Position numbers and translations under genes: made by a program. Of a DNA stretch of 64,000 bases, positions 5,107 through 29,627 are shown one piece after another. Position 1 is the stretch's first letter, and the number at the start of each line of letters is the position of its first letter. The notes under the pieces were generated by a model. It worked only from the letters and a program-made list of their open reading frames with translations, ran no database searches and was not told where the DNA came from. Where the stretch lies: positions 1 to 64,000 of the forward strand of contig DAHUZH010000003.1 in the NCBI GenBank assembly GCA_027306695.1. The letters run 5' to 3'. The stretch is from Acidobacteriaceae bacterium (GTDB taxonomy: Bacteria; Acidobacteriota; Terriglobia; Terriglobales; Acidobacteriaceae).

Positions 5107-5142
5107 ACAGCCAAGGCCCGGAGCGATCCGGGCCTTGGCTGT
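5107..5142 (+). terminator. Strong hairpin downstream of acnA
   Basis: A perfect 16-bp stem (ACAGCCAAGGCCCGGA and its complement) has a GCGA tetraloop. It begins 16 bp after the acnA stop. The classic T-run is missing on the plus side, so it may act in both directions or with Rho. The inner GGCCCGGA-GCGA-TCCGGGCC core is identical to the terminator at 27815-27847. Confidence 0.7.
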
Positions 5143-24647: not shown

Positions 24648-25943
24648 TCATTCTCCTGGCTGGCGCTCGGTGAGCCGAGGCCGCGTCTCTGGCGCGTTGG
24701 CCTGCATGTCTTTCGCCACCTGTTCCACCTGGCTGAAAACGCGCATCACGTTGCCGCCAAGTATTTTTTGCATGTCTGCCGCGGTGTAGCCGCGCGCCAT
24801 CAGGGCCGCGGTAATCTTCGGCAAGTCCGCCGGTGAGTCGATCCCTTCCGGCAAAGACGGCACGCCATCGAAATCCGATCCCAGGCCAACATGGTCGATG
24901 CCCGCAACTTTGGCAATGTGGTCGATCTGGTCGATCAGATTGTTCAGCGGAGGACGCGGAATCTTTGCGGCAAATTCGCGGTCGATACGGTCATACTCAG
25001 CATACGGCGGTGTGGACTGACCGGCGGCCTGGGCACGCGCCAGGGCCGCTTGCTTGGCCTCCGCGCGCAGCGGGGCCTGTGCGTTTGAGGCCGTTCGATA
25101 TGCCTCGCTGATAAATCCAGAGTAGAAATTCACCTGCACCACGCCGCCATTCACGGCCAATGCATGCAACATGGCATCCGTCATATTGCGTGGGCTGCCG
25201 CACAATACGCGCGCACCGGAATGAGACGCAATCACAGGCGCGCGCGAGATCACCAGCGTCCGATAAAACGTTTTGTCGGAGACATGCGAAATGTCCACCA
25301 TCATGCCCATGCGGTTCATCTGGTACACGACATCTTTGCCAAATTCGCTCAGGCCATCCTTCGTGTGCGGTATGGTGGTGTCGTCAGCGTCGCCGGAGGA
25401 GTCTGCCCAGCCGTTGGAATTACTCCAGGTCAGCGTCATATAACGGACGCCGAGCCGGTAATAGTCGCGCAGAATGCCGAGATTGTGGTCGATGGCATGG
25501 CCGCCTTCGACACCCATCAGCGCCGCAAGTTTATGTTCGCGGTGCGCACGCTCAATGTCCGCCGGAGAAAACGCCATGGCCATCTGGTCCGGGTGCTTGG
25601 CCGCCTGTTGATACACTGCATCGATCAGTTCCAGCGCGCGTGCGACTTCGTGTCCTTTATATTGATCGGGATCGACCCAGATGGAGAAAAACTCCGCACC
25701 CAGATTGCCCTGGCGTGCGTCTGGCAAACTCCACTGCCCATTGCCGCGCGGAGCATCCAGGTCGTAGTGCTCATCGACCAGCCGCTGCGGCGTGTCAGCG
25801 TGGGTGTCGATTACCAGCGCGGAAGCATGCACCGCTGCGGCGCTCGCGGGTTTTGCATGATCTTTTGAGGTTTGTGCATTGGTATTCATAGGTGTGTTTA
25901 TCGCTATGCATACCAGACACAGCAGACCACGCAGATATTTCAT
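24648..25943 (-). CDS. Membrane dipeptidase, peptidase family M19
   Basis: This 431-residue exported zinc dipeptidase of the renal-dipeptidase family cleaves dipeptides, often including D-residues. A signal peptide (about 1-23) precedes VIDTHADTPQRLVDE (first metal pair), GVEGGHAIDHNL with the bridging Glu, DISHVSDKTF, SHSGARVLCGSPRN and VGLGSDFDGV. An AGGAG lies 10 bp before the ATG. A periplasmic role in peptide scavenging is likely. It stands alone with a 375-bp upstream gap. Confidence 0.92.
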   Translation of the reverse strand: MKYLRGLLCLVCIAINTPMNTNAQTSKDHAKPASAAAVHASALVIDTHADTPQRLVDEHYDLDAPRGNGQWSLPDARQGNLGAEFFSIWVDPDQYKGHEVARALELIDAVYQQAAKHPDQMAMAFSPADIERAHREHKLAALMGVEGGHAIDHNLGILRDYYRLGVRYMTLTWSNSNGWADSSGDADDTTIPHTKDGLSEFGKDVVYQMNRMGMMVDISHVSDKTFYRTLVISRAPVIASHSGARVLCGSPRNMTDAMLHALAVNGGVVQVNFYSGFISEAYRTASNAQAPLRAEAKQAALARAQAAGQSTPPYAEYDRIDREFAAKIPRPPLNNLIDQIDHIAKVAGIDHVGLGSDFDGVPSLPEGIDSPADLPKITAALMARGYTAADMQKILGGNVMRVFSQVEQVAKDMQANAPETRPRLTERQPGE

Positions 25944-26318
25944 CCTGCCACGGCTCCTTTAGGGATGAGGATGCGCGAAGTGTAACAGAGTGCAGGGAAA
26001 GAACGCACATGCCCTGTGCAGCTTTCAGGTCGTGGCGTGCTTGCCGGAGAATGGAAAGATAGTGTCTGTTGGAATGTAAAAACTACCTTCTCTGCGCATG
26101 TTTTTCAAGACCGCAAATTTCCCAAAATGGAATGGTTATCTCGAAAGTTAACCCCTCATCTTTGCCATGCAGCATTGAATTCAGAGTAGTTTACGAAACA
26201 CGAGAATATTGTAGTCGCATCTGGCAACACGGCTGCTTCTTTTGGCATCGCGCGTGCAAGCATATGGGCACAACCAATTTTTTACCAGTTAAGCTTTGCT
26301 TCTAAAAATGGAGAATAA
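25944..26318. other. Intergenic region upstream of the first DUF4382 gene
   Basis: No convincing gene is seen here; a 78-codon ORF at 26069-26305 lacks any features. The region is AT-richer than its surroundings. It holds a sigma-54-like promoter element at 26242-26258, 60 bp before the lipoprotein start. Confidence 0.55.
26242..26258 (+). promoter_or_regulatory. Sigma-54-like (-24/-12) promoter of DUF4382 gene 1
   Basis: TTGGCATCGCGCGTGCA has GG and GC exactly 12 bp apart, as required for RpoN promoters. It keeps TGGCA and TGC of the consensus TGGCACG-N4-TTGC. The same arrangement occurs upstream of the paralogue (28072-28088), where it matches better. The predicted transcript start is near 26269, leaving a leader of about 50 bases. 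Confidence 0.5.
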
Positions 26319-27794
26319 ATGCGTACCACGCTGCTCCCCACATGCGCGGCATTGCTTTTGTGCGTTTTGAGTTTTGGCTGTGGTGGAGGAGTTCCTCTCA
26401 CCTCTGCGACCGGAACCACGACCAATGTAAACAATCCTGGAAACACTACAAACAATACCGTTCCTCCCACTCCGACTGCGTCCGTATCTCTCATGCTTAG
26501 CGATTCTGCGGCCTGCAAGGCCCCGAACGGTCCCATGGCGCACGTCTACCTGTCCATCGCAGACATCAAGGCCAGCATCAGTGCGACCGCTCCAGCGAAT
26601 GACCCGAGCTTCGTGGACATTACCCCGGGATTGTCAGGACAGCCGCGCCAGGTCGATCTAATGGGAAAGGCCGACAGCAAGTGTTTCCTGGCATCGTCAA
26701 TAGGTACAGCGCTGCAACTCGCTCTTGGAAATTATCAGCAGATCCGCATCATTTTAGCGCCGGATACAGCGGCCTCCTCGGTATCCCAAAATGCCTGTGG
26801 CGCTTCTTATGCCAACTGCATTGTGCTCAGCGATAACAGCCTGCATGATTTGCAGGTTGGCGCGGCGGCAACCAACGGAGTAGAAATCCCCGCAAATCAG
26901 ATTGCCAATGGCGGCCTGACCATCAATGCGGGGGAACAGCCTGCAATCGACTTCAATTTCGATATCTGTTCCTCCATTGTTCTTACGTCGGACGGTGGTT
27001 ACGAATTCAAACCTGTGGTGCATGTCGGTCTAGTTTCCTCCTCTGGAGGAAATATCACTGGGACAATCGTCAGTTCGGCCACCGGAGTGGCATTGAATGG
27101 CGGTACTGTTGTGGTGGCGTTGGAACAGAAGGACACCAGCGGCATCGATCGCGTGCTGATGCGTACGGTTGCCAGTACCGATGGTTCCTTTGTTCTGTGC
27201 CCCGTACCGCAAGGCACGTATGACATCGTGGCCGTCGGTGTGGACGGAGCGAATGTCGCCTATTCGGCGGGCGTGGAGACGGGAATCCAGTCTGGACAGA
27301 TTGCGGGAGAAATTCCTCTCGTGCCTGGCTCCAGTCAGGGGACGTTGCAGGGACTGATGAGCACGCAGAATGCAGCTCTTCCGCCTGCCGCCACAGTGGG
27401 CGCCATGCAGGCAGACGCTCTGCAGAAGATCGGCGGCAACGGGGTGACGATTACAGTGCCGCTGTTGCCGACGCAGAGTCCTTACAATGAGGCGATGTTG
27501 ACGGCCAGCGCGCAAAACTGCCCCGCAGGCACGGACTGCGCTTCTTACTCCATGCTGCTGCCGACAACGACCCCCAACGTTCTGGCCTGTTCGTCGCAAA
27601 CAACCTCGTTCAGCCAGCAGGGAACACCGCCAGACTACATTGCGGAATCCTTCGCGCAGAACGCAGGCTCCGGTTCGCAGGATTGCACATCGTCGAACCT
27701 GCGCGCTACAACTACTCCGAGCGGAGGTAATTTGGCGCTCAATCCAGGATCGAACACAGCAGCAGCGAACATGACATATACACAATGTAAGTAG
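26319..27794 (+). CDS. DUF4382 lipoprotein with carboxypeptidase-regulatory-like domain (paralogue 1)
   Basis: This 491-residue predicted outer-surface or periplasmic lipoprotein has a signal sequence with lipobox LSFGC (Cys about 21), then a Thr/Asn/Pro-rich linker. A DUF4382 domain covers about 48-235 (SVSLMLSDSAACKAPNG...YLSIADIKASIS...YQQIRIILAPD). A beta-sandwich resembling the carboxypeptidase regulatory/SD-repeat fold follows at about 243-335 (GNITGTIVSSATGVALNGGTV...PQGTYDIVAVG). The C-terminal part is unrecognised, with paired cysteines. DUF4382 has no established function; a surface or carbohydrate-contact role is a guess. The next gene is a full-length paralogue. Confidence 0.9.
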   Translation: MRTTLLPTCAALLLCVLSFGCGGGVPLTSATGTTTNVNNPGNTTNNTVPPTPTASVSLMLSDSAACKAPNGPMAHVYLSIADIKASISATAPANDPSFVDITPGLSGQPRQVDLMGKADSKCFLASSIGTALQLALGNYQQIRIILAPDTAASSVSQNACGASYANCIVLSDNSLHDLQVGAAATNGVEIPANQIANGGLTINAGEQPAIDFNFDICSSIVLTSDGGYEFKPVVHVGLVSSSGGNITGTIVSSATGVALNGGTVVVALEQKDTSGIDRVLMRTVASTDGSFVLCPVPQGTYDIVAVGVDGANVAYSAGVETGIQSGQIAGEIPLVPGSSQGTLQGLMSTQNAALPPAATVGAMQADALQKIGGNGVTITVPLLPTQSPYNEAMLTASAQNCPAGTDCASYSMLLPTTTPNVLACSSQTTSFSQQGTPPDYIAESFAQNAGSGSQDCTSSNLRATTTPSGGNLALNPGSNTAAANMTYTQCK

Positions 27795-27814
27795 TAATAG
27801 CAGCCCTCCCCCAC

Positions 27815-27847
27815 AAAGGCCCGGAGCGATCCGGGCCTTTGTTTTTT
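27815..27847 (+). terminator. Intrinsic terminator after DUF4382 gene 1
   Basis: The stem AAAGGCCCGGA / TCCGGGCCTTT has loop GCGA and is followed by GTTTTTT. It is a textbook terminator 20 bp after the stop, and it separates the two paralogues into separate transcripts. Confidence 0.93.
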
Positions 27848-27913
27848 AAGTGATGACATAGACGGGCTTACACCTGTTTTTTTCGAGAAAAAGTTACAGA
27901 TTCTGTGCAACAG

Positions 27914-27950
27914 TTACATGGAAAGCCTTGGTAAGGCTTTCCCAATGTAA
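27914..27950 (+). promoter_or_regulatory. Long inverted repeat upstream of the sigma-54-like promoter
   Basis: The arms GGAAAGCCTT and AAGGCTTTCC flank GGT, and the outer arms TTACAT / ATGTAA extend the pairing past a small bulge. No T-run follows. It lies about 120 bp upstream of the -24/-12 element, the distance at which RpoN activators usually bind. It could be an activator site or just a hairpin. Confidence 0.35.
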
Positions 27951-28071
27951 GATTACTTCTGTACCCATTTTCATTTATATTCTTTTAGGGGTTTAGGTCT
28001 AAGTTGTTGCAAATACGCAACAAAATCCTAAGACGTATTCTCATCTGTTCCTTGCTTGACCACAGCAAAAT

Positions 28072-28088
28072 TTGGCATGGAAGTTGCA
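28072..28088 (+). promoter_or_regulatory. Sigma-54-like (-24/-12) promoter of DUF4382 gene 2
   Basis: TTGGCATGGAAGTTGCA matches YTGGCACG-N4-TTGCW with one mismatch (T for C). GG and GC are spaced correctly at 28074 and 28086. The predicted transcript start is near 28099, about 59 bases before the ATG. Confidence 0.65.
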
Positions 28089-28157
28089 AGTATGCTCGCA
28101 CAGCGGGTTGCGCTCGATTGACCCGGTGATACGACCAATAATTTTTCTGGAGGTAAT

Positions 28158-29627
28158 ATGCGTTTATTTCTTACCCTATTTTCTGGGATTGCTGTGTCGG
28201 GTCTGATTATCATCGGGTGCAGTTCCGGTACATCTACCAGCACCACTCCGAAGGCAACCACCGTCAATGTGAGTCTTAGCGATCCGGCGGCGTGTCAGGC
28301 GCCGAACGGTCAGTTTTCCCACGTTTATGTAACAATCACGGACGTCAAGGCCAGCACCAATGCGAACGCTGCAAGCGGTGATCCTAGTTTCGACGATCTC
28401 ACTCCCAATCTTTCCTCCTCACCCTCCTCATCTATGCAGGTAGATCTTTTAGGACAGGCCAACCCCCAGTGCTTCCTTGCCATGCTGGGTTCCACGACGG
28501 AGCTCCAGGCGGGCAGCTATCAGCAGATTCGCATTATTCTCGCGCCCGACTCCCAAGCCCCTTCGATTGCAAACAATCACTGCGGCAGCTATGCCAACTG
28601 CGTTGTGACCTCCGATGGCGTCACGCACGATCTCGCCCTGTCGAGCGAGTCTAAAACGGGGCTTAAAATTCCTTCCGGCCAGATCGCGAATGGTGGTTTT
28701 AACGTAGGCTCCGGCCAGACGGAAGATCTCGACATCAACTTCAATACTTGTTCTTCGATTGTGGACGAAGGCAATGGAACCTTCCGGTTGAAGCCGGTCC
28801 TGCATGCGGGAGAAGTGAGCACAACCGCGACCTCCATCAACGGGACTGTCATCAGTTCGGCGACGAACAAGCCGTTGGTCGGTGCTGTTGTCGCTGCAGA
28901 GCTAAAGGACACGAGCGGAACCGACCGCATTATGATGCGCACGATGACGGACTCCAACGGTGGATTTGTCTTCTGCCCACTACCTGCCGGGACCTATGAC
29001 ATCGTTGCCGTTGGTCCAGTGACAGGAGCAACGTCCTCGCTGCCAGCCGCCTCCTATTCCGCTGGCGTGGTTCTTAGCGTGCAGCCTGGAGAAACGACAG
29101 GACCCATTCCATTGGTTCCGAATACACAGGAGTCATCGCTGTACGGTCAGGTGACTTCGCAGAACAGCTCGAATGCTGGCACAGTTGTCGATTTACAACT
29201 TGCTGCGCTCCAGCAGGTCCCTGGAAATGGCCCGACAATCACAGTGCCACAGCTTCCGATGACACCGGGGATCAACGGCGTCGCTTCCACCTTTAGCACG
29301 GACGGGGTGTATGCGACGGCCCCAAGCAGCACAAGCAACGTTTGTCCGACAGGTACGGATTGCGTCAGTTATACGCTTTACGTCCCATCTGTATGGCCCA
29401 ACGTTGCCACCTATGCGGCGAACGGGGCAACCTTCAGCCAACAGCAATCCACATCGACGACCCCAGTCGATTACACGATGGATGCATTGGCAGAGATTCC
29501 AAGCTCCGGAGGTAAGTCGGACTGCACACCACAAAGTGAATTGAAGACGAGCACGGCGGTAGGCGGCGGGCCACTGACAGCAACATCCGGAAATGCTTCC
29601 ACACTGGCATTTGTTGGATGTCAGTAG
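28158..29627 (+). CDS. DUF4382 lipoprotein with carboxypeptidase-regulatory-like domain (paralogue 2)
   Basis: This 489-residue paralogue of the preceding lipoprotein gene has the same order of parts: signal with lipobox LIIIGC (Cys about 22), DUF4382 (NVSLSDPAACQAPNGQF...YVTITDVKAST...QQIRIILAPDSQ), a beta-sandwich (SINGTVISSATNKPLVGAVV...PAGTYDIVAVG) and a C-terminal region with TVPQLPMTPG and a final Cys. Similarity runs end to end but is lower in the linkers and C-terminus, so the duplication is not recent. GGAGG lies 6 bp before the ATG. It has its own sigma-54-like promoter and its own terminator. Confidence 0.9.
   Translation: MRLFLTLFSGIAVSGLIIIGCSSGTSTSTTPKATTVNVSLSDPAACQAPNGQFSHVYVTITDVKASTNANAASGDPSFDDLTPNLSSSPSSSMQVDLLGQANPQCFLAMLGSTTELQAGSYQQIRIILAPDSQAPSIANNHCGSYANCVVTSDGVTHDLALSSESKTGLKIPSGQIANGGFNVGSGQTEDLDINFNTCSSIVDEGNGTFRLKPVLHAGEVSTTATSINGTVISSATNKPLVGAVVAAELKDTSGTDRIMMRTMTDSNGGFVFCPLPAGTYDIVAVGPVTGATSSLPAASYSAGVVLSVQPGETTGPIPLVPNTQESSLYGQVTSQNSSNAGTVVDLQLAALQQVPGNGPTITVPQLPMTPGINGVASTFSTDGVYATAPSSTSNVCPTGTDCVSYTLYVPSVWPNVATYAANGATFSQQQSTSTTPVDYTMDALAEIPSSGGKSDCTPQSELKTSTAVGGGPLTATSGNASTLAFVGCQ

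Follow-up and report, generated by a model that had tools for sequence, protein, structure and literature searches.

On sequence evidence, predicted sigma-54 (RpoN) promoters recur in front of genes for DUF4382 lipoproteins in the Acidobacteriota, although this link is not obligatory. In the window, which is the whole 64 kb stretch of DNA analysed here, there are two such genes, referred to as A and B, and it is very probable that each is transcribed from a sigma-54 promoter of its own. This reading of the two promoter elements is well supported by comparative evidence from the genus and the order.

The pattern shared by the two upstream regions, TTTGGCAT-N6-TGCA, is found at 26241–26258 and 28071–28088, and these are its only exact matches on either strand of the window. 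Extended through TGCAAG, the matches end at 26260 and 28090. The A element, TTGGCATCGCGCGTGCA (26242–26258, forward strand), and the B element, TTGGCATGGAAGTTGCA (28072–28088, forward strand), both contain GG-N10-GC, with GG and GC 12 bp apart. Relative to YTGGCACG-N4-TTGCW, there are three mismatches in the A element and one in the B element. An earlier note had described this motif and spacing before both DUF4382 lipoprotein genes, and had placed the second element one mismatch from the RpoN consensus; both observations held, the first at the exact positions. With a matrix that represents the published consensus, the B element scores 18.2 and the A element 12.2 (first and third among the forward-strand sites of the window), and by this measure the A element is only moderate. 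A weaker second match of the −24/−12 type, CTGGCAACACGGCTGCT, lies at 26221–26237, 21 bp upstream of the A element, and GGCAAC alone is kept there in some relatives.

Transcription from sigma-54 promoters starts about 12 nt after the GC. The predicted start regions, CACAA for A (26269–26273, forward strand) and CACAG for B (28099–28103, forward strand), have the same spacing from TGCA, and both predicted starts fall on CACA, ten bases past TGCA. Starts at 26269 and 28099 would give leaders of 50 nt and 59 nt, respectively. The distance from the first base of the 17-mer to the ATG is 77 bp in A and 86 bp in B, so the 50–60 bp given in the earlier note fits the predicted start sites and not the elements. 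No sigma-70-type site was found at 25940–28170.

Gene A (26319–27794, forward strand) encodes a DUF4382 lipoprotein of 491 aa (PF14321, E 7e-13, 49.4 bits; lipobox LSFGC). Gene B (28158–29627, forward strand) encodes one of 489 aa (PF14321, E 2.6e-20, 73.5 bits) that also contains a CarboxypepD_reg (CnaB/transthyretin-like) domain (PF13620, E 9.2e-9). The gathering score for PF14321 is 25 bits. By motif, a signal peptide and a lipobox (FGC in A, IGC in B) are present in both proteins, and the lipobox cysteine (Cys21 of B) is invariant among 64 aligned relatives. Modelled with a pLDDT of 87, B is almost entirely beta strand, and its residues 223–323 match CnaB/transthyretin-like domains such as 8bdw_H (Z 9.3, rmsd 2.2, 88 aligned). 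A and B are exported lipoproteins made up of beta-rich domains, and they probably belong to the cell surface. The DUF4382 domain modelled alone reached a pLDDT of 91, and a Foldseek search with this model returned no significant match (all E-values above 0.03). Its best structural match was 4qb7 (Z 7.2, rmsd 3.7, 132 aligned), and the top matches included Bacteroides fimbrial/adhesin-type folds with Z of 6–7, a level that unrelated folds commonly reach. No solved structure related by sequence to the DUF4382 protein was found. Because of the Foldseek E-values, the fimbrial/adhesin-type match is only a lead, and an adhesin or fimbria role for the DUF4382 lipoproteins would be a guess from these models.

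An intrinsic terminator, consisting of a strong hairpin followed by a T run, separates the two genes (27813–27842, forward strand). The window contains two copies of its 20-base stem, GGCCCGGAGCGATCCGGGCC, at 5115–5134 and 27818–27837 (0.01 expected), within longer hairpins that differ from one another.

The genome examined is a 4.0 Mb assembly that is about 91 % complete. It contains one complete rpoN gene with the activator-interacting (AID), core-binding (CBD) and DNA-binding (DBD) domains, together with seven genes that strongly match the sigma-54 activator domain. Six of these activators were inspected, and the GAFTGA motif is present in four, appears as GAFTGT in one and is absent from one; none of the six scanned passed an equivalog cut-off. 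The absence of rpoN, which the earlier note had named as an argument against its proposal, does not apply to this genome, where a complete rpoN and GAFTGA activators are present. Among the relatives with DUF4382 genes, rpoN was found in 65 of 71. Two further matches were noted in the same genome. TTGGCACCATGGTTGCA (G000:C222, L063 3331–3347, minus strand) lies 87 bp before the ATG of an OmpA-family gene, a distance near that of gene B, and this gene is possibly a further sigma-54 target at the cell surface. TTGGCACACAGCGTGCA (G000:C27, L056 2553–2569, minus strand) is flanked by a GAFTGA activator gene and, downstream, by a gene for a Cu-oxidase_4 (laccase-type) protein.

Within the genus, the A element is fixed and the B element is patchy. 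All seven A genes, including the one described here, keep TGGCA[TC]-N6-TGCA with GG-N10-GC at −72 to −81, and in all of them CACAA or CAAAA is found 10–11 bases past the element, at the predicted start, while the flanks otherwise vary. Outside the genus, GG-N10-GC is kept at −72 in G016. The B element is near the start in three of nine genomes, namely here, in G066 (−122) and in G064 (−111), and it scores 17 bits or more in the latter two. In G061 and G063 a weak form is found near −190, whereas G060, G062, G067 and G068 have none; it is also missing in G147. The earlier proposal that the element was selectively kept after duplication therefore stands cleanly for A and only in part for B. In three of the genomes that lack the B element (G062, G067 and G068), an intact A with its own element precedes B and no terminator separates the two, so the A promoter could serve both genes there. 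Upstream of the B genes of sister species (L072, L073, L074, L075 and L097), 30–80 bp before the start, there are common blocks resembling TTCCATTTTT and AACGTCTATG, which are perhaps a different promoter.

This patchiness allows for a reading in which the A element alone is a genuine sigma-54 promoter, while the B element is a chance match or a decaying relic and B is expressed from another promoter. The genomes in which the B element is missing or displaced to about −190 favour that reading. However, no other forward-strand site in the window scores as high for sigma-54 as the B element, which is also at a usual distance, and here the terminator cuts B off from A. In addition, it retains its high score in G064 and G066, where gene A, just upstream of B, has decayed to a fragment of about residues 307–414 (L110 and L109, respectively). 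We therefore consider it unlikely that B lacks a sigma-54 promoter in the window.

To examine recurrence, 106 distinct A/B-type DUF4382 genes of the order and of its closest relatives were scanned without a matrix for TGG[CA]-Nk-TGC[AT], with k from 3 to 14, within 250 bp upstream. At k=8, the sigma-54 spacing, 28 of the 106 genes have a match in the sense direction and 2 in the antisense direction, whereas every other k gave 0–5. With the matrix and a score of at least 11.5, 22 sites were observed, where the remaining DNA of these loci would lead one to expect 1.3 (antisense, 1), though the genes compared are related and not independent and the Poisson figure overstates the case. Strong elements were found in at least nine genera, which belong to two families. 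On the protein tree, the element is clustered (15 changes versus a mean of 24.1 after shuffling, with none of 500 shuffles as low); the A clade has it in 7/7 genes and one large clade in 1/41. No other promoter motif was found in the 41-gene clade that is without elements. Elsewhere in the phylum, 46 DUF4382 genes gave 5 sense and 0 antisense sites at the threshold, an enrichment weaker than that in the order. Roughly three in four DUF4382 genes of the order have no recognisable element, and one clade has it in a single gene, so the link is not obligatory.

These comparisons also bear on whether the shared 17-mers could be functionless leftovers of the duplication or chance matches. Loose patterns of the sigma-54 type are common in the genome (19 matches versus 11 for the reversed control, few of them intergenic) and, when three mismatches are allowed, the window has no more matches than its shuffles. 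Against this, the element is kept in every A gene of the genus while the flanks vary, and the enrichment over the 106 genes is confined to a single spacing and controlled by the antisense strand. The comparative data already speak against functionless 17-mers in the case of A, and we regard this explanation as highly improbable. It is just as improbable that some other DNA-binding protein, one sharing these half-sites, recognises the element in place of sigma-54: the element fits the consensus and the spacing of RpoN sites, its distance from the start codon suits a promoter, it is confined to the sense strand, and the genome has rpoN and activators.

The sigma-54 interpretation of the two elements is thus supported by the presence of rpoN and its activators and by the upstream regions of orthologues, which the earlier note had suggested as a check and which proved positive both for A and, through the exact-spacing enrichment, across the order.

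In the sigmulon of Desulfovibrio vulgaris, the inverted repeats that serve as activator sites are at least 100 bp upstream (PMC4641369). A candidate site of this kind for gene A is TTCCCAAAATGGAAT (26119–26133, forward strand), an imperfect form of a palindrome that is perfect in relatives, as TTCCCAAAATGGGAA or TTCCCGAAACGGGAA. The palindrome precedes the −24 element by 123–134 bp in 5 of 7 A-type genes. In G062, G065 and G068, TTCCCAAAATGGGAA is 132–134 bp before the element; in G016, which belongs to another genus, TTCCCGAAACGGGAA has both arms changed symmetrically; and in this genome TTCCCAAAATGGAAT is at 123 bp, about one helical turn closer. The perfect palindrome occurs once per genome in G062, G065, G068 and G016, each time before A. 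Its position and symmetry are those of a site for an enhancer-binding protein, but it is missing upstream of A in G061 and G063 and for this reason remains a candidate. The lone match in G060 is elsewhere in the genome and not before a DUF4382 gene. Upstream of B, a perfect 7-6-7 inverted repeat, TTGTTGC-AAATAC-GCAACAA (28004–28023, forward strand), was considered as a possible activator site and rejected, as the window has 12 repeats of this kind and this one is not beyond chance. Among 28,348 gapped words, none was convincing as an activator site common to all sigma-54-positive genes.

In the mechanism we propose, sigma-54 RNA polymerase would bind the −24 GG and the −12 GC and wait as a closed complex until an enhancer-binding protein, bound upstream, opened it on receiving its signal. 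For gene A, this activator would most likely bind at the TTCCC-N5-GGGAA palindrome, and RNA synthesis would start near 26269 (A) and 28099 (B). We can also picture a wider arrangement, which is speculative and less likely to be right than wrong, in which Acidobacteriota have an activator-controlled surface module of adhesin- or fimbria-like DUF4382 proteins. A dedicated enhancer-binding protein would read TTCCC-N5-GGGAA before A, and members that share a locus would rely on either one or two sigma-54 promoters, depending on which terminators and gene copies had been gained or lost.

The mechanism is a textbook one, and the novelty lies in the recurrent pairing of a sigma-54 promoter with DUF4382 lipoproteins in the Acidobacteriota. 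In the literature searched, we found no description of sigma-54 regulons in this phylum and none of a recurrent sigma-54/DUF4382 lipoprotein link, and DUF4382 itself is scarcely named. The −24/−12 consensus tGGcacg...tTGCt, the 10 nt between GG and GC, upstream inverted repeats as activator sites (here a candidate one) and the bias towards the cell exterior are all shared with the D. vulgaris sigmulon (PMC4641369; for the exterior bias, also PMC3162934). However, the phylum is a different one here, and we found the target family, DUF4382, in no described sigma-54 regulon. In floc-forming bacteria, genes for PEP-CTERM surface proteins are RpoN-dependent (PMC9850573), which likewise places RpoN over surface proteins of poorly known role. 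Unlike in that system, the proteins here are lipoproteins, and none of the activators scanned exceeded the NCBIfam cut-off for the PEP-CTERM response regulator. A glycosylated DUF4382 (PF14321) protein with a lipobox, HVO_1030, is known from Haloferax volcanii (PMC8241124). The DUF4382 domain and lipobox-type export are common to this archaeal protein and those described here, whereas here, in a bacterium, DUF4382 is followed by a CnaB/transthyretin-like domain and a beta-rich C-terminal part. Sigma-54 is not known to occur in archaea.

Sigma-54 promoters in general stay off until an activator switches them on and give conditional expression, which would point to tightly conditional expression of the DUF4382 lipoprotein family. 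The pairing is consistent with the view that control of the cell exterior is the main role of sigma-54 in bacteria (PMC3162934). As the Acidobacteriota are a dominant soil phylum, a recurring promoter signal before their DUF4382 lipoproteins offers a direct handle on when these proteins are produced, and once the activator and its signal are found, the role of the family would become testable.
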